A stretch of 22,417 nucleotides of DNA from the IMG/VR virus record IMGVR_UViG_3300015241_000132, positions 1-22,417 of that record. One strand, given 5' to 3'. Made by a program: the position numbers and the translations under genes. Below are positions 8,133-22,417 of this stretch, one piece after another. The notes under the pieces are model-generated. The model was not told the origin of the DNA and searched no databases. It worked only from the letters and a program-made list of their open reading frames with translations. How positions within the stretch are numbered: position 1 is the stretch's first letter; each line of letters opens with the position of its first letter. This stretch comes from a virus.

Positions 8133-8152
8133 GTGTTAGGTGTTAGGTGTTA
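8118..8152 (+). repeat. Tandem heptad array (GGTGTTA)5
   Basis: Five exact, uninterrupted copies of GGTGTTA occupy 8118-8152. The last overlaps the TAA stop of the leftward gene. Two inverted copies (TAACACC) at 8100-8113 fold on the first two units. Such an array can change length by slippage or serve as a protein-binding iteron; which applies is not known. Confidence 0.9.
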
Positions 8153-8437
8153 CTTTAGCACCACTACACCAGTGCGCACAAAGTACCGCAGCCACCCGGT
8201 TGCCGGTTCGGCAACGCCACTTTTTGGCAGGCTGGGCGGCTTGGCTGTGCAGGCAGCCAAGTAGGCTTGCGCTGGCTGCCCAACGTGCGCCTGTGCCACC
8301 GCGTACCACGCTGCCCGCGCGCCCCGGTACTTAATGCCAGCCTTAACGCTGGCAATAATTTGGGGCTGTGCCTTGCCCGTTGCAGTTACATTAACCGGTG
8401 CCTGCACCACAGCACCCGGCTTTGTTACCTTAACCAT
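8150..8437 (-). CDS. KYRG/GW-domain small protein, paralogue 1 (95 aa)
   Basis: Starts at ATG 8437 with AGGTGG just upstream. The N-terminus is a flexible Val/Pro/Lys stretch (MVKVTKPGAVVQAPVNVTAT). The conserved domain follows: VKAGIKYRGARAAWYAVAQA, then AKPPSLPKSG and TGWLRYFVRTGV. The same domain occurs at 9863-10141 and 21082-21498. The function is unknown; the protein is small, basic and rich in Ala and Val. The gene is GC-rich, with several internal GCC/GGC hairpins, unlike the AT-rich flank. It has its own promoter (8481-8508), a terminal hairpin and flanking 15-bp direct repeats, so it looks like a self-contained cassette. Confidence 0.8.
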   Translation of the reverse strand: MVKVTKPGAVVQAPVNVTATGKAQPQIIASVKAGIKYRGARAAWYAVAQAHVGQPAQAYLAACTAKPPSLPKSGVAEPATGWLRYFVRTGVVVLK

Positions 8438-8471
8438 ATACCACCTGTTACATGTTGCTTGGCGGTTACCA

Positions 8472-8483
8472 AGTGCATGCACT
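8472..8483. promoter_or_regulatory. Operator-like palindrome at the promoter of paralogue 1
   Basis: AGTGCATGCACT is a perfect 12-bp palindrome that overlaps the edge of the -10 box and the expected transcription start of the leftward promoter. That position suits a repressor dimer. No cognate protein is identified. Confidence 0.4.
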
Positions 8484-9862: not shown

Positions 9863-10141
9863 TTACGCCTCGCTTGCCACGCCGGTTCGTTCAAAGAACC
9901 TCAGCCAGCCCGCAGGCTTTTCAGCCTTCCCACTCTTGGGTAGGCTAGGAGGTTTCTTGGCGGTGGCCTCAAGGAATGAGTCCACGCTCTTTCCATCGTG
10001 CTGCTGCAGAACAGCATACCACGCCTCCCGAGCACCACGGTATTTCATACCGGCCTTGACTTTGAGGAGTTTCACCTTCTCCGGTCCAGCTTCTTTCGCC
10101 ACCGTTTTGACTCCCTTACCACGTTTCACTTCGGCTTTCAT
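9863..10141 (-). CDS. KYRG/GW-domain small protein, paralogue 2 (92 aa)
   Basis: ATG 10141 is preceded by AAGGGG with five-base spacing. The frame is open upstream to TTG 10255, which would add 38 residues (INHVWHLDKVHGKVVISSNV...), so a longer form cannot be excluded. A basic, flexible N-terminus (MKAEVKRGKGVKTVAKEAGP) leads into the conserved domain: VKAGMKYRGAREAWYAVLQQ, AKKPPSLPKSG, AGWLRFFERTGV. It is very similar to the 8150-8437 protein and more distantly to 21082-21498. The function is unknown. The gene closes the leftward cluster and runs into the bidirectional terminator. A perfect TTGACA at 10233-10228 (leftward) hints at its own promoter, but its -10 is poor. Confidence 0.75.
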   Translation of the reverse strand: MKAEVKRGKGVKTVAKEAGPEKVKLLKVKAGMKYRGAREAWYAVLQQHDGKSVDSFLEATAKKPPSLPKSGKAEKPAGWLRFFERTGVASEA

Positions 10142-10247
10142 ATAAGCCCCTTCGGTTTTACAGGCTCTGATGAGAGCCTCTGATTTCGCAGCAACATTAC
10201 TGCTTATGACTACCTTACCATGGACTTTGTCAAGATGCCACACATGA

Positions 10248-10430
10248 TTAATCAAGATTGTAATTGTCTAATAACTGCTTTAGAGCCAAGACAATCGCAA
10301 TAGGGCAATCCTTTCCCGCGCACCAAGAGCGAAATTCACGCTCTCCTACCTCCAATGCACGCGAGGCCTGACGCTGACTCCATTTCAGCTGAGCCAGTAA
10401 TTCACGGAGTTCATTAGCTCGATTTGTCAC
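10248..10430 (-). CDS. Small helix-turn-helix protein (60 aa)
   Basis: From GTG 10430 the protein is essentially one Cro/CI-like HTH domain: NELRELLAQLKWSQRQASRA, then LEVGEREFRSWCAGKDCP. SQRQASRALEVGEREFRSW gives the helix-turn-helix (residues about 19-37). The frame is open further upstream to ATG 10550, but that would overlap the preceding gene by 65 bases. The GTG instead overlaps the stop of a 20-codon coupled ORF (GTGA), in line with neighbouring junctions. It probably binds DNA and is a candidate regulator of one of the palindromic operators in this window. Confidence 0.65.
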   Translation of the reverse strand: MTNRANELRELLAQLKWSQRQASRALEVGEREFRSWCAGKDCPIAIVLALKQLLDNYNLD

Positions 10431-10489
10431 GGGCGAAACTGTGGGTAACGACGGAAGAATTCCCAAAAGTCTGAAAGCTGTAGCTTCAT
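10427..10489 (-). CDS. Possible 20-residue translationally coupled peptide
   Basis: ATG 10489 overlaps the upstream stop as ATGA and its own TGA overlaps the GTG of the HTH gene (GTGA). An AAGGTGG site is placed suitably upstream. It encodes MKLQLSDFWEFFRRYPQFRP. Double coupling matches every other junction in this cluster, so it may be a real micro-gene or simply carry ribosomes to the HTH start. Too short to judge by composition. Confidence 0.4.
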   Translation of the reverse strand: MKLQLSDFWEFFRRYPQFRP

Positions 10490-10677
10490 CTTTCCACCTT
10501 GTCACATTCGCGCTGGGCTTCTTCCACCACAGGCTGAAGAGTATGCGCATATTCAGTCGTCACCGTGAGGACAGTCATGCGCTTCCCCTTAGTTACTTCG
10601 TATTCAAACCCAGCTTTATCCAAGTGACGCTTGAATATCTCAAGCTTCCACGGATCAATCACCACCCCGGCTTTCAT
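10486..10677 (-). CDS. Small conserved phage protein (63 aa)
   Basis: ATG 10677 overlaps the preceding stop (ATGA). The sequence MKAGVVIDPWKLEIFKRHLD, then AGFEYEVTKGKRMTVLTVTT, is of a type seen in many phages as a small protein of unknown function: a beta-alpha-beta unit followed by a helix (QPVVEEAQRECDK). No catalytic residues are visible. Confidence 0.7.
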   Translation of the reverse strand: MKAGVVIDPWKLEIFKRHLDKAGFEYEVTKGKRMTVLTVTTEYAHTLQPVVEEAQRECDKVER

Positions 10678-13077: not shown

Positions 13078-13097
13078 TCACACCTTATTATAGGGGC
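13078..13097 (-). promoter_or_regulatory. Conserved promoter-like element, copy 2 (head of the small-gene cluster)
   Basis: Read leftward: GCCCCTATAATAAGGTGTGA, containing a perfect TATAAT. It equals the 4386-4407 element except for two inserted bases there. It overlaps the last codons and stop of the primase gene, yet lies at the head of the next leftward cluster. No consensus -35 is present. The repeat in two equivalent places supports a regulatory role. Confidence 0.45.
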
Positions 13098-15085
13098 GGC
13101 AGCGTGCTAGGGTCGTAGATATACCATCTCCCCACGGCCCCTGTATCTGGATGTCTTGAAGTCTTAGTCGGCTTTATGCATTTCATTTTCTGAAGAATAG
13201 CAGAAACTTCTCGAGTTAAATGAGGATTAGAAGCTTGATGCCCCATTTCTAGATGGGCAAGCACTTCAGTCATCTTAAAGAGGGTGGGACCGTTTTCCTT
13301 TCCTGGAGTTATTTTATCTGTTTGTTTTCTAGATAAGAATTCTTCAACCTTGTGTTCTAACAAATTAGGAATCACATATTCTTCTGCGTGTTCACTAGCT
13401 CCCTCTACTTCCCAGTATTTGCAGGTTCCTGATTGGTATATGGACCAAGCTTCGGCCCATAGTTGATCTCTTCCACCTTCCAGCCGTGCGAAGTCAAGAA
13501 GTCGATTAACTTCCACAATGGCGTATCGCCGATATCCAGTGGGATCGTGTTGCAGAAAATCATGCCTATTTCCACACCCGTATAACGTGAATCGTCGTGG
13601 AAAAACTTCAACTGACGCACCATACGGGGGTCTAAAGCTATCTTCATTTCTAGTCACCATCGCTTTAAGGTTAGACGACTCTTTACGATTGAATGAATCC
13701 AACTCATCAAATCCCACGCATAGGGCAGAATGTAGGAGCATATGAAGATCTTTATCATCGTGTTCCCCATATAGCGTGAGGTTTGCATCCTTGAATAAGA
13801 TAGATGGCATTGAGGTCTTGCCAGTTCTTTGAGGCCCAACAGTAATGAGCATCCAGTCTATTTTTGTTCCGGGTTTGTCCATTCGGGCACACGCCGATAT
13901 GAGCCACTTACTTCCGACTTCACGTATGAAGGCAGAGTCTCCCACTCCCCAAAAATCTTGAAGCCAAGTACCAAGTCTAGATTGACCGTCCCATTGTAGG
14001 CTTCGTACATATTCAAGGAATGGCGATCTGGCATTTCGCTTCCCCAAGGCTTGAATACACGTGAAGACCGTCCGATGAGTGACTTTGTCGAACCCGAGGT
14101 TATGTTGCAGATAGTTAGCGATGTCAACCTCGGTAAGATCAGGCTGAGCAGGGTTTTCGCCCACCATGATTTTATTGTTATCCTGATTTCGCCATATTCT
14201 TGGGAATGCACTGTGATTCTCCATTAGCTTCATTATGTTTGAAGTATGTTGATAAACAAGCGGCCTGTCTTTCGCATCAGTCTTAAATGCAAGACCATAT
14301 CGCTTGATAAGTGCAGCAGGGGATTGAACGAGATCTTTAGCTTCAATGGCTTGAAGTTCCACAAAACGCTCACGTGCAGATTCCCCCCATTGAACAATGA
14401 GGTCATCAATCTTGCCTGGAACCGAGAGGATTTTGACTTGGATACCCTCAAGTTCCAAGGCGCGAGCGAAGTTTCCATATGCGGTGGAAATGTCATATCT
14501 ATATACGTCGCCGTCTGGAACGATTGCGACCCTAGAGATATTTCTTTGAGCCAACAAGCGCCGTATCCAGGGATGGACAGTTCCAGATCCATCGGGATGC
14601 CGCCAAAGGAAACAGCCTCCAATCCCAAAGGCGGGGAGATTAAGATACTTGAGAATGGATACCGTCTTTTTCTCTCCTTCGGCACAAATCATCTCCTCAC
14701 CGTCGAGTAAGAGCGTTAGAGGATGTATATAGGGAACACTAGAAGGGAGGTCGAACTTTGCTAATTGTTCTTTGCTAGGCTGTGAATACCTTGCTTCCCG
14801 ACTGTATTCGGGCAACTTAAATCTAGTCCTGAACATGATCGGCATGTTCTGGGCGTCGACAATAGGATTCCCTGTTAGATCAAAATAGGGGATATTATAT
14901 CCAGCTTGAGCTCCTTCCTTCAGCGGAAGGATGCCTGGAGTGAATGCCCAGATATCTTTTTGTTCTAACCCAGATCTAGCTAAATCTTCTTCCAGAAACT
15001 TTTGATTTGTACTGTCGTCAACCCTAAAGAATTGTGTTTCGTGCAAGGCCGGGATTTTGAACGGCCGAAAGGAGAGTACCGACAT
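13088..15085 (-). CDS. Primase-helicase: TOPRIM-like (DUF3854-type) plus VirE-family P-loop ATPase
   Basis: A 665-residue protein from ATG 15085, which has AAGGGG four bases upstream; an upstream in-frame start at 15184 lies in a structured control region and is less likely. The N-terminal half has a TOPRIM-like core: MICAEGEKK (about residues 132-140) and VAIVPDGDVYRYD (about 186-198), the acidic pattern of DUF3854/primase-associated domains. The C-terminal half is a virulence-associated-E-type ATPase with Walker A GPQRTGKT (417-424), Walker B GFDELD (458-463) and an arginine-rich sensor region (YGCGNRHDFL, TGYRRYAIVEV). Such proteins prime and unwind DNA for phage replication. It is transcribed away from the polymerase operon, from a shared control region. 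Its stop overlaps the conserved element at 13078-13097. Confidence 0.85.
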   Translation of the reverse strand: MSVLSFRPFKIPALHETQFFRVDDSTNQKFLEEDLARSGLEQKDIWAFTPGILPLKEGAQAGYNIPYFDLTGNPIVDAQNMPIMFRTRFKLPEYSREARYSQPSKEQLAKFDLPSSVPYIHPLTLLLDGEEMICAEGEKKTVSILKYLNLPAFGIGGCFLWRHPDGSGTVHPWIRRLLAQRNISRVAIVPDGDVYRYDISTAYGNFARALELEGIQVKILSVPGKIDDLIVQWGESARERFVELQAIEAKDLVQSPAALIKRYGLAFKTDAKDRPLVYQHTSNIMKLMENHSAFPRIWRNQDNNKIMVGENPAQPDLTEVDIANYLQHNLGFDKVTHRTVFTCIQALGKRNARSPFLEYVRSLQWDGQSRLGTWLQDFWGVGDSAFIREVGSKWLISACARMDKPGTKIDWMLITVGPQRTGKTSMPSILFKDANLTLYGEHDDKDLHMLLHSALCVGFDELDSFNRKESSNLKAMVTRNEDSFRPPYGASVEVFPRRFTLYGCGNRHDFLQHDPTGYRRYAIVEVNRLLDFARLEGGRDQLWAEAWSIYQSGTCKYWEVEGASEHAEEYVIPNLLEHKVEEFLSRKQTDKITPGKENGPTLFKMTEVLAHLEMGHQASNPHLTREVSAILQKMKCIKPTKTSRHPDTGAVGRWYIYDPSTLPPL

Positions 15086-15093
15086 ACGACCCC

Positions 15094-15122
15094 TTGCAAT
15101 CCGCCTAACAGGCGGGTATGAT
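15094..15122 (+). promoter_or_regulatory. Rightward sigma70-type promoter with an operator in its spacer
   Basis: -35 TTGCAA (15094-15099), a 17-bp spacer, and -10 TATGAT (15117-15122). The spacer is filled by the palindrome CCGCCTAACAGGCGG (15101-15115), a 6-bp inverted repeat with a 3-bp centre. A repressor bound there would block polymerase and also sit ten bases or so before the leftward primase start. The expected start is near 15128. Confidence 0.6.
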
Positions 15123-15127
15123 TGACC

Positions 15128-15205
15128 GTGTCGGATGCACGACCCCCTTGGCACCGACACATTCAGCGCCGATAGGAAGCTCAATCCTGTCGGCGCTTTC
15201 CTTTT
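15128..15205 (+). promoter_or_regulatory. Attenuator-like leader with competing hairpins and terminator
   Basis: GTGTCGG (15128-15134) can pair with CCGACAC (15154-15160). A second strong hairpin has AGCGCCGA (15165-15172) paired with TCGGCGCT (15190-15197), extended by a T-G wobble and AGGA/TCCT, followed by TTTCCTTTT, which is a rho-independent terminator for rightward transcripts. CCGACA (15154-15159) can instead pair with TGTCGG (15188-15193) in the terminator arm, giving an antiterminator. A 28-codon ORF (15135-15221) overlaps the terminator. Confidence 0.5.
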
Positions 15206-15313
15206 GGGGGTAAGCGGGTAGTATGCGCCACGTTATGCTCGTCGTAAATCGCCTGTGGTATCAGAAAGGGTCTAGCAGTAAAATAGTGGGTATGGTGGTG
15301 ATAGGGAAGAGTC

Positions 15314-15523
15314 ATGAGCACGAAAAAAGAAAAGATCCAGATGTGGGTCGCGTGCATCCTCACGGCCGGCGAATGGGCGATCGCCATAGTTGTTCTTGTG
15401 CAACGTGGTGACTTGGTCATGATCTATTTGGCTGTGACTTACCTCATTCGTGAGACGAGCGGTGGAAAGCACTATCACGAAATTGTCGCTGCTGCTATTC
15501 ATCGGCTCATAGTCAAAGTCTAA
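15314..15523 (+). CDS. Small membrane protein (69 aa)
   Basis: ATG 15314 has GGGAAGA shortly upstream. Hydrophobic segments at about residues 11-29 (WVACILTAGEWAIAIVVLV) and 34-46 (LVMIYLAVTYLI) predict two membrane passes, after a basic start (MSTKKEKIQ). A basic amphipathic tail follows (HYHEIVAAAIHRLIVKV). The role is unknown. It is first in the rightward replication operon, just after the attenuator-like leader. A hairpin follows at 15532-15560. Confidence 0.65.
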   Translation: MSTKKEKIQMWVACILTAGEWAIAIVVLVQRGDLVMIYLAVTYLIRETSGGKHYHEIVAAAIHRLIVKV

Positions 15524-15531
15524 GAGTAAAA

Positions 15532-15560
15532 AGCACTAGCCTCGGCATGGGGCTAGTGCT
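15532..15560 (-). terminator. 10-bp hairpin with T-run on the minus strand
   Basis: AGCACTAGCC (15532-15541) pairs with GGCTAGTGCT (15551-15560) around a nine-base loop. Read leftward, it is followed by TTTTTAC. Read rightward, no T-run follows. It may block antisense transcription entering from the right, or act as an mRNA stabiliser in the rightward transcript. Confidence 0.6.
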
Positions 15561-15581
15561 ATCCTACTCCTATTGTTGCGG

Positions 15582-15722: not shown

Positions 15723-16451
15723 ATGAGCGAAAACATGCCAGTCCGGTGGGATGAGAAGCTTGCTGAATCTGCAAAGGAAGTCGCCGCATTAGAGCGACCA
15801 GCACTCAGTCAGATAAGTCTTCGTGCAGGACAGATGACGTATATGAAGCAAGCTGTTCCTGGGAACAAGCTAACTGTCGTTGTTCTGGCAAGCTGCTTTG
15901 AAAACAAATTATTCAAGGGCAAGTTTGATCCCAATAAGTACGAGGCACCTTCATGCTACGCCTTGAGCCTTACTGGGGAAAACATGGCTCCTCACGAAGA
16001 CGCAAAGGACAAGGAAAGTGAAGTATGCGAGACGTGTGAACAGAACAAGTGGGGATCTGCTGGGGGAGGGTCCAAGGGCAAGGCGTGCAAGCAAGTTCGT
16101 CGCCTCGCACTCATCCCAGCAGGAGCTCTCCAAGACGGAAATGTCGCTTCTGCTGAGCTGGCTGTTATGTCCATCCCTGTTACATCAGCACGGAACTGGG
16201 CCAATTACGTCAACGCCATTGCCGCTGAGCATCAGCGACCCCCTTGGGGAATGCTTACAGAGATCCGTACAGAGCCCGACGCCAAGACTCAATTCCAAGT
16301 GAAATTTGAAGCGAAGGGCATGGTAGCAGAGGACTATCTACCTCAAATCTATAAGCGTGTCGCCCCAGCAGCCCAAACCCTCCTAACTCCATACGACGAC
16401 AGTGGTGTTGTCGCACAGGCTCCGGATCCTCTGCCAAATCGGAAATACTAA
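15723..16451 (+). CDS. Probable phage single-stranded DNA-binding protein (242 aa)
   Basis: Starts at ATG 15723 (an in-frame ATG follows at 15735; the ribosome site is weak for both). The body has beta-rich segments (NKLTVVVLASCFENKLFKGK, SCYALSLTGEN) around a probable zinc site: C102-x2-C105 (VCETCEQNKWGS), then C122 after a Gly/Ser/Lys loop (GGGSKGKACKQVRRL). The C-terminal tail is flexible (YDDSGVVAQAPDPLPNRKY). Proteins of this type commonly sit directly before a phage PolA and are proposed to coat ssDNA at the fork. That role is inferred from position and pattern, since no OB-fold signature can be proven by eye. The stop overlaps the polymerase start (TAATG). Confidence 0.6.
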   Translation: MSENMPVRWDEKLAESAKEVAALERPALSQISLRAGQMTYMKQAVPGNKLTVVVLASCFENKLFKGKFDPNKYEAPSCYALSLTGENMAPHEDAKDKESEVCETCEQNKWGSAGGGSKGKACKQVRRLALIPAGALQDGNVASAELAVMSIPVTSARNWANYVNAIAAEHQRPPWGMLTEIRTEPDAKTQFQVKFEAKGMVAEDYLPQIYKRVAPAAQTLLTPYDDSGVVAQAPDPLPNRKY

Positions 16452-18331
16452 TGGACATCATAGTTGTAGACTATGAAACAGAAGCCATTGTAGGAAATCC
16501 AGTTGTTAATCCGCCGAAGGCGGTAGGAGTCGCAGTCTGGGCTCCAGGAGAAGAGCCAGCTTATCTAGCTTGGGGGCATCCAAGTGAAAACAACTGCTAT
16601 TTCGGCGACGCCCACAAATACCTTACTCGGATTGTGGAGAGTGGACTACCTCTGTTATTTCATAATGCTGCGTTTGACATCAGCGTCAACAATAATACCT
16701 TCTGTAACGCTCAAATCTCTTGGTTAAATGAAGGATGGAAGCGCATCCATGACACGATGTTCTTACTTTTTCTTGCTGATCCTTACAGCCCCACTCTGTC
16801 TCTCAAGCCCAGCGCTGATCGTTATCTTGGCCTCGCAGCCGATGAGCAAACAGCGCTCTATGACTGGATTCTTACCAATGTTTCTGAAGCTACTCGTAAA
16901 ACCGCCGGAGCTTACATTTGTAGAGCACCTGGCGATTTGGTCGGCCGCTATGCAGTTGGTGACGTGGTTCGTACTCGCGGGTTGTTTGATCTACTTCACG
17001 CTAAGATAGTTGAGGAGGGGATGGAAAATGCTTACGATCGTGAGCGTCGTTTACTCCCTATCCTTATGCGCGGGACTCAGCACGGTATCCGTATCGATCG
17101 TGACACTTTGGAAAGACATGAGTCGCAGTACACTGAAGCCGTCCGAAGTGCAGATATACGTCTTGCTGATCTTCTTGGGTGCCCTGTTGATCATCTCGAA
17201 CATGACGAGTCTCTTGCAAACGCCTTGGAAGTGTCAGGAGCCGTAAAAGAATGGATTCTTACTCCTAAGTCTGGTAAGAGGTCGATGGCGAAAGGCAACT
17301 TGAACATCGTCATCCCAGAAATAAAAACTCTGATGGAGTATAGAAGTGGCGTTTCTACATGTTTGCAGACCTTTATGCGTCCGTGGCTCAAGTTTAGTGC
17401 ATCTGATGGACGCGTGCATCCCGGATGGAATCAAGTTCGAACACGAGGGGAGAATGGTGGAGCCGATTCTGGAACACGAACTGGGCGTTTGTCTAGCTCA
17501 GGTCCAAATTTCCAAAACGTGCCGACGGAATTTGTTGATTCGTTGGGCCAACCTCTCCCTGTTCCAGAAGGTCTGCTGCCTTTCCCACTTATGCGACGCT
17601 ATTGCCTCCCAGAACTCGGGCATGTTTGGCTCAAACGTGACTTTAGCTCGCAAGAAATTCGCATTCTTGCTCACTTTGAGGACGGGGGCTTATGTGAGGC
17701 ATATAGAGCTAACCCATCACTAGATCCTCACCAGATGGCAGCAGACCTCATACTCAACCTCATTGGAATTAAGTATGCCAGAAAAGACGTTAAAATCACA
17801 GGATTCAGCATCATCTACGGAACCGGAGCTAACGGACTATCTATACAGCTTGGAACTTCAAGAGAGGATGCTTTTGTTATCAAAGAAGCCTATCTTAATG
17901 CTATGCCCGGAGTGCGGGCCGTCATGCAAGACGTTCAACGTAGAGGCAAGACTGGGCAACCAATCCGTACGTGGGGCGGACGGCTCTATTACGTTGAGGC
18001 TCCTAAAGAGATTGACGGACAACTACGAGATTTCGCTTATAAGCTGCTCAACTATCTCATCCAAGGAAGCGCGGCTGACCAAACTAAAGAATCCCTTAAC
18101 GATTGGAGTGAGACTCGCGGATGGGATCATGTCTTTCTTGCTACCGTTCACGACGAAATCAACATCAGCGCCCCTAAAGAAGACTGGATTGCCGCCATGG
18201 AAAGACTTACGATAGCTATGAATGCTGAGAGATTTGATGTTCCCATGCTCAGTGAAGGTTACATAGGTGAAAACTGGCAAGACATAGACAAGGAAGAAAA
18301 TTATGTTGCGAATCAAAGTGTTGCAGCCTGA
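16451..18331 (+). CDS. Family-A DNA polymerase with 3'-5' exonuclease
   Basis: 626 residues, replicating phage DNA. Proofreading domain: Exo I VVDYETE (D7, E9), Exo II LLFHNAAFD (N72, D76), Exo III YAVGD (Y167, D171). Polymerase domain: TGRLSSSGPNFQNVP (about 344-358); motif A KRDFSSQEIRILAHF (D397); motif B with R444, K448, F452, Y456 (RKDVKITGFSIIYG), which align one-for-one with E. coli Pol I R754, K758, F762, Y766; motif C TVHDE (H567-E569). All catalytic residues are present. There is no 5'-3' exonuclease domain, as is usual in phages. Translation is coupled to the upstream probable SSB (TAATG). The equivalent of Pol I residue 762 is Phe, a choice reported in viral ecology to go with mostly lytic phages. 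Confidence 0.97.
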   Translation: MDIIVVDYETEAIVGNPVVNPPKAVGVAVWAPGEEPAYLAWGHPSENNCYFGDAHKYLTRIVESGLPLLFHNAAFDISVNNNTFCNAQISWLNEGWKRIHDTMFLLFLADPYSPTLSLKPSADRYLGLAADEQTALYDWILTNVSEATRKTAGAYICRAPGDLVGRYAVGDVVRTRGLFDLLHAKIVEEGMENAYDRERRLLPILMRGTQHGIRIDRDTLERHESQYTEAVRSADIRLADLLGCPVDHLEHDESLANALEVSGAVKEWILTPKSGKRSMAKGNLNIVIPEIKTLMEYRSGVSTCLQTFMRPWLKFSASDGRVHPGWNQVRTRGENGGADSGTRTGRLSSSGPNFQNVPTEFVDSLGQPLPVPEGLLPFPLMRRYCLPELGHVWLKRDFSSQEIRILAHFEDGGLCEAYRANPSLDPHQMAADLILNLIGIKYARKDVKITGFSIIYGTGANGLSIQLGTSREDAFVIKEAYLNAMPGVRAVMQDVQRRGKTGQPIRTWGGRLYYVEAPKEIDGQLRDFAYKLLNYLIQGSAADQTKESLNDWSETRGWDHVFLATVHDEINISAPKEDWIAAMERLTIAMNAERFDVPMLSEGYIGENWQDIDKEENYVANQSVAA

Positions 18332-21081: not shown

Positions 21082-21498
21082 ATGACTGATGCACATGCGA
21101 ATTTGACCCCACCGACCAAGAAGATTCCTCCAAAGGCGGCCACGACCGGAAATGGTGGTCCTGTAGGAGCGAAAGAAGCAAAGCCAGCGAAGGATCCTAA
21201 CGCTCCGAAAAAGCCCCGCGCGGCCCGCGCAGACTATGGCTTCAGCCCGGACAGCACGATTCATATCGTGAAAGATAAGGACAACAAATACCGAGGTCAG
21301 CGTCTGGACTGGTTCAACAAGATCGTGGCTTTTGAAGGGAAGAAGGTTTCCGAGTTCATGACCAAGTACGAAAAGGCCCAGACGTCTAAGGGCACGGCTG
21401 ATCCGCCCCGTGGATGGGTCCGCTTTTTCGTACAGGATGGTACGGTGACGCTCAGTAAGCCTCCGGCGACTCCTGCGGCCACTCCCGCCGCAGCCTGA
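21082..21498 (+). CDS. KYRG/GW-domain small protein, paralogue 3 (138 aa)
   Basis: ATG 21082 with GGAG upstream. A long basic, Pro/Ala/Lys-rich N-terminal arm (residues 1-55, with KKPRAARAD) precedes the domain: DNKYRGQRLDWFNKIVAFEG, then PPRGWVRFFVQDGTVTL. A short Pro/Ala/Thr tail follows. The KYRG-x4-W and GW-V/L-R-F/Y-F signatures match the proteins at 8150-8437 and 9863-10141, but the PPSLPKSG linker of those two is replaced by a different segment. The charge and disordered arm suggest nucleic-acid binding (inference). It has its own promoter and is followed by a hairpin, so it is a single-gene unit. Confidence 0.8.
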   Translation: MTDAHANLTPPTKKIPPKAATTGNGGPVGAKEAKPAKDPNAPKKPRAARADYGFSPDSTIHIVKDKDNKYRGQRLDWFNKIVAFEGKKVSEFMTKYEKAQTSKGTADPPRGWVRFFVQDGTVTLSKPPATPAATPAAA

Positions 21499-21990: not shown

Positions 21991-22066
21991 CTGGGATCTT
22001 CTTCGTAAGCTAATTATAAGATACGCTGAGGCATCTCGGGCAGATGAAACGCCTCGTTCGAGGTGA
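21983..22066 (+). pseudogene. 5' end of a phage gene cut by the junction with chromosomal DNA
   Basis: ATG 21983 overlaps the preceding stop by eight bases (ATGACTAA). The first codons (MTNWDLLRKLIIRY) look like a normal phage start, but from about 22014-22025 the sequence is the reverse complement of glutathione reductase and the frame soon ends in TGA. So only the first 10-14 codons are likely to be phage. The rest of the gene is missing. Confidence 0.55.
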
Positions 22067-22417
22067 TCGCCAGTTCCTTGCCCGGAATATCGGGAACATA
22101 TGGCCAGCCGCCGGTTGCGATCAGGATGCGCTCAGCCGTCACCCGCTCTCCGGTTGACAGCGCAACTGTGTGAGCATCGACCAATGAGGCGCGCGCCTCG
22201 TAAATCTTAACCCCGACCTTTTCCATGATCTGGCGATAGATCACGTTCAGGCGCGAAATTTCCGCATCCTTGTTGCGGATCAGGTCGGACCAGGTGAAAA
22301 CCGCCTCGTCGACCTTCCAGCCATAACCGGCGGCATCTTCGAAGCCATGTCCAAAGCCGGCGGAATAGGCGAGCAGCTTTTTCGGAATGCAGCCGACATT
22401 GACGCACGTGCCGCCCA
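22014..22417 (-). pseudogene. gor: Glutathione reductase fragment (foreign, chromosomal origin), truncated at both ends
   Basis: Leftward from the window edge the frame reads GGTCVNVGCIPKKLLAYSAG, the redox-active disulfide motif of glutathione reductase (NADPH-dependent flavoprotein). It continues through GYGWKVDEAVFTWSDLIRNK, IYRQIMEKVGVKIYEARASL, ILIATGGWPYVPDIPG and FHLPEMPQRIL, then hits TAA at the junction. The true protein would go on (NAD-binding and dimerisation domains). The FAD-binding start lies beyond the window. The stretch is GC-rich, unlike the AT-rich phage genes just left of it. The style suggests an alphaproteobacterial chromosome, but this is an impression. It shows a contig chimera or, less likely, a real insertion boundary. 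Confidence 0.9.

Follow-up and report, generated by a model that had tools for sequence, protein, structure and literature searches.

A probable antisense RNA gene in the leader of a phage primase-helicase

Plasmids provide the classical cases of replication genes under antisense control; CopA of plasmid R1, for one, is made up of stem-loops with a U-turn loop. Among phages, lambda OOP is to our knowledge nearly the sole antisense case near replication genes that has been studied. RNAII of plasmid pMV158 is a 48-nt terminated countertranscript that lies immediately upstream of the repB translation signals and inhibits repB translation, and YUNR is the recognition-loop motif in antisense systems that start by loop-loop pairing (PMC4485353). 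For lambda pO/OOP, a short antisense RNA has been described in the replication region, with pO opposing pR, and an effect of this promoter opposition has been proposed (PMC3985674). Small RNAs of phages were reviewed in 2025, with no mention of primase (PMC12197685). Our text search of the literature found no antisense RNA described as lying opposite the primase leader of a phage, and absence there does not prove novelty.

The predicted RNA presented here resembles RNAII and CopA in that it would be a short terminated countertranscript, fully complementary to an mRNA just upstream of the start of a replication gene. It differs from them in its likely target, which is the primase-helicase of a phage and not the initiator of a plasmid, in its unrelated sequence, and in that repression is here a matter of prediction. 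Also, unlike RNAII, it would leave a gap of about 43 nt to the start codon, which its own promoter fills. The likeness to OOP and pO lies in a short terminated RNA situated in a phage replication region and opposite to the transcript of a replication operon; the antisense target of OOP, however, is the cII portion of the pR transcript, whereas that of the present RNA would be the primase mRNA's own 5' leader, and the RNA would end at the primase promoter. We consider it probable that the element is the gene of a ~78-nt cis-encoded antisense RNA in the primase-helicase leader, which restrains the expression of the primase-helicase.

The sequence under study, 22.4 kb in length, is the IMG/VR record of a phage and is hereafter called the window (Table 1). 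The start codon of the primase-helicase gene was fixed at 15085 by alignment with the homologue in locus L006, and a rightward operon on the plus strand comprises a 69-aa ORF, the ssb-like gene of a conserved protein and polA. Searches of phage records by DNA similarity to the region gave no match, and neither did searches of viral contigs with the primase as a single query, so that an alignment was required to find relatives. Protein alignments led to a group of uncultivated phages; their primases share 28-61% identity with that of the window and up to 77% with each other. The comparison of the region upstream of the primase covered 22 genomes, namely the window and 21 related phage loci (numbered with L), and repeated searches for close relatives with the upstream region returned nothing further. 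No host was found, as the searched genome contigs gave only a single 30% fragment. One of the relatives, IMGVR_UViG_3300046736_000171, is probably a complete genome, since by eye its 40.3-kb contig begins and ends with the same ~130 bases (L002:1-129 and L006:3802-3930).

Table 1. Features around the divergence of the primase and polymerase genes in the window
Feature	Position	Strand	Remarks
Primase-helicase gene	13088..15085	-	665 aa, VapE-like domain, PHROG helicase/primase
Predicted primase mRNA 5' leader, ~128 nt	15086..15213	-	inferred
Primase Shine-Dalgarno AAGGGG	15095-15090	-	
Short antisense RNA promoter, TTGCAA-17-TATGAT	15094..15122	+	predicted, sigma70-type
Palindrome CCGCCTAACAGGCGG = CCGCCT-AAC-AGGCGG	15101..15115	.	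inside promoter spacer, single copy
Predicted ~78-nt antisense RNA	15128..15205	+	predicted 5' end to terminator tail; layout recurs in relatives
5' hairpin GTGTCGG/CCGACAC, loop ...ACCCCCUUGG...	15128..15160	+	
Intrinsic terminator	15165..15205	+	13-pair stem 15165-15197, tail TTCCTTTT
Primase operon promoter, TTTACG-17-CATACT	15220..15248	-	predicted start near 15213; -10 at 15225-15220
Candidate rightward operon promoter, TGGTAT-17-TAAAAT	15256..15284	+	score 8.3; would drive 69-aa ORF, ssb-like gene, polA
Conserved phage protein, PHROG 27714, function not assigned	15723..16451	+	adjoins polA, ssb-like position
DNA polymerase A family gene (polA)	16451..18331	+	

A preliminary description of this DNA had pointed to a sigma70 promoter, to a hairpin at the predicted transcript start and to a strong terminator where the primase and polymerase operons diverge. 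All of these sequence parts are present, and together they predict a short terminated RNA. The promoter scores 12.0 on a sigma70 matrix, which only 0.28% of the 51-nt bins in these phages reach. The RNA from 15128 to 15215 folds at -43.2 kcal/mol (z=-6.1), a value that none of 200 shuffles equalled, and a 77-nt RNA from this place ranks sixth in stability among the 4062 window segments of equal length. The same ranking gave 1/2062 in L007, 1/1378 in L009 and 3/1552 in L023. Modelled in this way, the element has the makeup of a promoter-driven, terminated and highly structured short RNA gene. The Rfam search gave no match to the element, the lambda OOP RNA family included, the only match being a sub-threshold one to sraL at 15422-15562, and the exact hairpin pattern gave no match in viral contigs.

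In nine of the 22 genomes, the region upstream of the primase has an antisense-strand terminator of -15 kcal/mol or below whose end lies 78-139 nt from the primase start; the distance is 112-119 nt in six of these genomes (window, L007, L009, L021, L023 and L043). The expectation for such terminators is 0.017 per genome, and the resulting P of about 5e-11, like that of about 2e-11 for the seven genomes left at a threshold of -20 kcal/mol, is optimistic in assuming a uniform background, given that promoters and terminators are enriched between genes. On the sense strand the same zone holds one terminator at -15 and none at -20 kcal/mol. Intergenic enrichment alone is an insufficient cause of clustering this tight.

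A TTGCAA-like promoter stands before the terminator in the window, L007, L009, L020, L021, L043 and L049 (scores 7.4-12.7). Counterparts of the window's promoter occur at an equal distance from the primase start in L009 (12.7), L008 (12.3), L043 (9.7), L020 (9.2) and L007 (7.4), and at shifted positions in L049 (10.8) and L021 (10.7). The matching promoter of L023 is weak (5.8), that of L048 is of another type, and L008 combines its promoter with a very long hairpin that has no T run. In the window, L007, L009, L023 and L043, whose sequences here are unrelated, the RNA would open with a hairpin, placed at its predicted 5' end or close to it, and finish with a terminator hairpin. Sister pairs, such as L007/L043 (primase identity 72%) and L020/L021 (73%), keep the layout and not the letters, and the stems of the relatives' antisense RNAs are unalignable, their primary sequence having strongly diverged. 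The place of the terminator is conserved, its sequence is not. The layout is less strict in L013, L048 and L024, where the opposing promoter is also indistinct, and at least seven relatives are without the antisense RNA, which makes it dispensable.

The best-conserved stretch upstream of the primase in an 11-genome alignment is AGTRTRYGCC...GCAAT on the plus strand, located beyond the terminator. Read on the minus strand it becomes ATTGC..17..YAYACT, which is evidently the primase promoter, and the preliminary description had overlooked it just past the terminator. It is kept in 11/11 aligned genomes, with or without the antisense RNA; L014, L022 and L027 have the primase promoter, no short RNA and a short leader only. 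Given the position of this promoter beyond the terminator, the primase mRNA should begin at the start listed in Table 1, and its leader from about +8 to +84 would be complementary to the whole short RNA. The ~78-nt RNA, predicted to be transcribed from the strand opposite to the primase mRNA, would thereby be a countertranscript of the primase leader. Within this leader, at window 15125-15160 (minus strand), the primase ribosome site recurs in an imperfect form, CCAAGGGGGTCGTGCATCCGACA versus GCAAGGGGTCGTATGTCGGT; judged by eye, the copy (AAGGGGG-TC-GTG) could start an 11-codon leader peptide that ends within the palindrome.

What the computations show is the anatomy of the element, its matching placement across related phages, and the conservation of the primase promoter that opposes it. 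In the proposed mechanism, the promoter at 15094-15122 would yield an RNA with a 5' hairpin and a 3' terminator hairpin that ends some 8 nt before the point where the primase transcript is predicted to start. The primase transcript would run the opposite way from its promoter at 15248-15220, and every base of the antisense RNA would be complementary to the leader. Repression may then take one or more of several routes. The RNA may pair with the leader, starting by loop-loop contact and ending in a duplex open to RNase III, with cleavage or block as the outcome; the two promoters, about 85 bp apart, may interfere head-on; or a C-rich loop may pair with the primase ribosome site. A CUUGG loop of the YUNR U-turn type is present in the window, L007 and L023, and other YUNR loops in L009 and L043, YUNR tetramers being frequent by chance. 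The primase ribosome site lies outside the region covered by the antisense RNA, and blocking the covered part of the leader moved the predicted accessibility of this site from 0.43 to 0.39 in the window, with an inconsistent effect across genomes. We therefore rejected a simple refolding switch of the leader that hides the ribosome site; covering the leader without a consistent effect on the site argues instead for interference, degradation or direct pairing with the site.

One alternative, possible though on balance unlikely, is that collision of polymerases or occlusion of primase transcription is what matters and that the RNA is a by-product. The antisense promoter outscores the primase promoter that it faces (12.0 vs 8.4), and in lambda pO affects replication largely independently of OOP RNA (PMC3985674). 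The complete turnover of the hairpin sequences among relatives and the ribosome site left open by blocking of the leader fit this alternative as well. Interference alone, however, has no need of the 5'-end hairpin that several relatives keep, and the terminator ends just before the opposing start.

We are more doubtful of an action in trans, in which the C-rich loop (ACGACCCCCUUG) would pair with ribosome sites, that of the primase (AAGGGGUCGU) first and possibly those of other phage or host genes. In the window, the duplex of the RNA with the primase ribosome site reaches -28.2 kcal/mol, and direct repeats of 8 and 7 nt tie the RNA to the start-codon region, but C-rich loops fit any Shine-Dalgarno sequence. 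Own pairs beat swapped pairs over 11 genomes (permutation p=0.014), a modest signal that is strongest in the window, L049 and L021 and comes from a test devised after the repeats were seen. It can also be speculated, at still longer odds, that the fast-changing antisense loops exert a plasmid-like copy control in trans by pairing with the primase leader and ribosome site; the RNA of a resident genome would then limit further primase synthesis in phages that share its loop type but in no others, so that incompatibility or superinfection groups would arise.

The preliminary description took the element for a repressible promoter and attenuator of the rightward polymerase operon, with either an alternative fold or a leader peptide controlling read-through, a reading which we now regard as very improbable. 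Like trp-type attenuators, the locus has a promoter, a 5' hairpin and a terminator ahead of an operon and oriented towards it; unlike them, it has no conserved leader ORF, no competitive antiterminator and a separate operon promoter downstream. The complementarity of CCGACA and TGTCGG on which the alternative fold relied does exist, but the forced CCGACA:UGUCGG antiterminator folds at -23.4 against -40.9 kcal/mol (17.5 less stable), or at -17.6 against -24.0 kcal/mol (6.4 less stable) with the first 23 nt masked, and the alternative pairing of 6 nt in the window shrinks to 3-5 nt in relatives. Similarly, the 28-codon ORF at 15135-15221 can be read in the sequence, but it begins 7 nt from the predicted RNA start without a Shine-Dalgarno sequence and has no counterpart in the relatives, and the antisense RNA, lacking a conserved ORF, is predicted to be non-coding. 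A leader-peptide attenuator was rejected because there is no start signal, no kept ORF and no antiterminator that competes with the terminator. The palindrome in the promoter spacer is present as described, and its reading as a repressor operator was given up: perfect 6+3+6 palindromes number nine in the window versus 5.9 expected (p=0.03 for the TTGCAA-17-TATGAT promoter alone), a weak signal near chance level, the palindrome is not repeated, and most relatives are without one. The claim that the same promoter drives the replication operon is not supported, given the separate rightward candidate 3' of the terminator, which has counterparts of the form TTG..-17-CATACT at the same place in L013 and in L014, L022 and L027, the last three being without the short RNA. 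Further along this operon, AGCACTAGCC/GGCTAGTGCT (window 15532-15560) form a perfect 10-bp inverted repeat directly behind the 69-aa ORF, possibly a second terminator without a good T run.

A role as primer or activator transcript at a replication origin was once proposed for lambda oop. Such a role at the operon divergence is the least probable reading here, since the location between replication operons and the GC skew sign change near 14-15 kb are set against a skew change expected from divergent genes, the lack of iterons, a phage-encoded primase-like protein, the strong terminator and the lack of the RNA in several relatives whose replication genes are the same.

If the antisense reading holds, an RNA that is conserved in position and variable in sequence would extend plasmid-style replication control to uncultivated phages. 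Such RNAs would be missed by sequence-similarity searches, and it is the position of promoter and terminator that reveals them.

Other parts of the window gave some minor observations. Part of a bacterial-type glutathione-disulfide reductase lies at the right end of the record (22014-22415, minus strand; NCBIfam TIGR01424, E 2.8e-51), which is unexpected in this phage; the gene may have been acquired, may belong to host DNA at the edge of a prophage or may reflect a chimeric assembly. The proteins encoded at 8150-8482 (minus), 9863-10255 (minus) and 21082-21498 (plus) look paralogous by eye; the first two have the C-terminal motif PPSLPKSGxAE..GWLRxFxRTGV in common, and the third has a looser version, GWVRFFVQDGTV. 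Also, the small protein encoded at 10248-10550 (minus), with a helix-turn-helix-like segment and a weak MqsA-type match, is a possible regulator.
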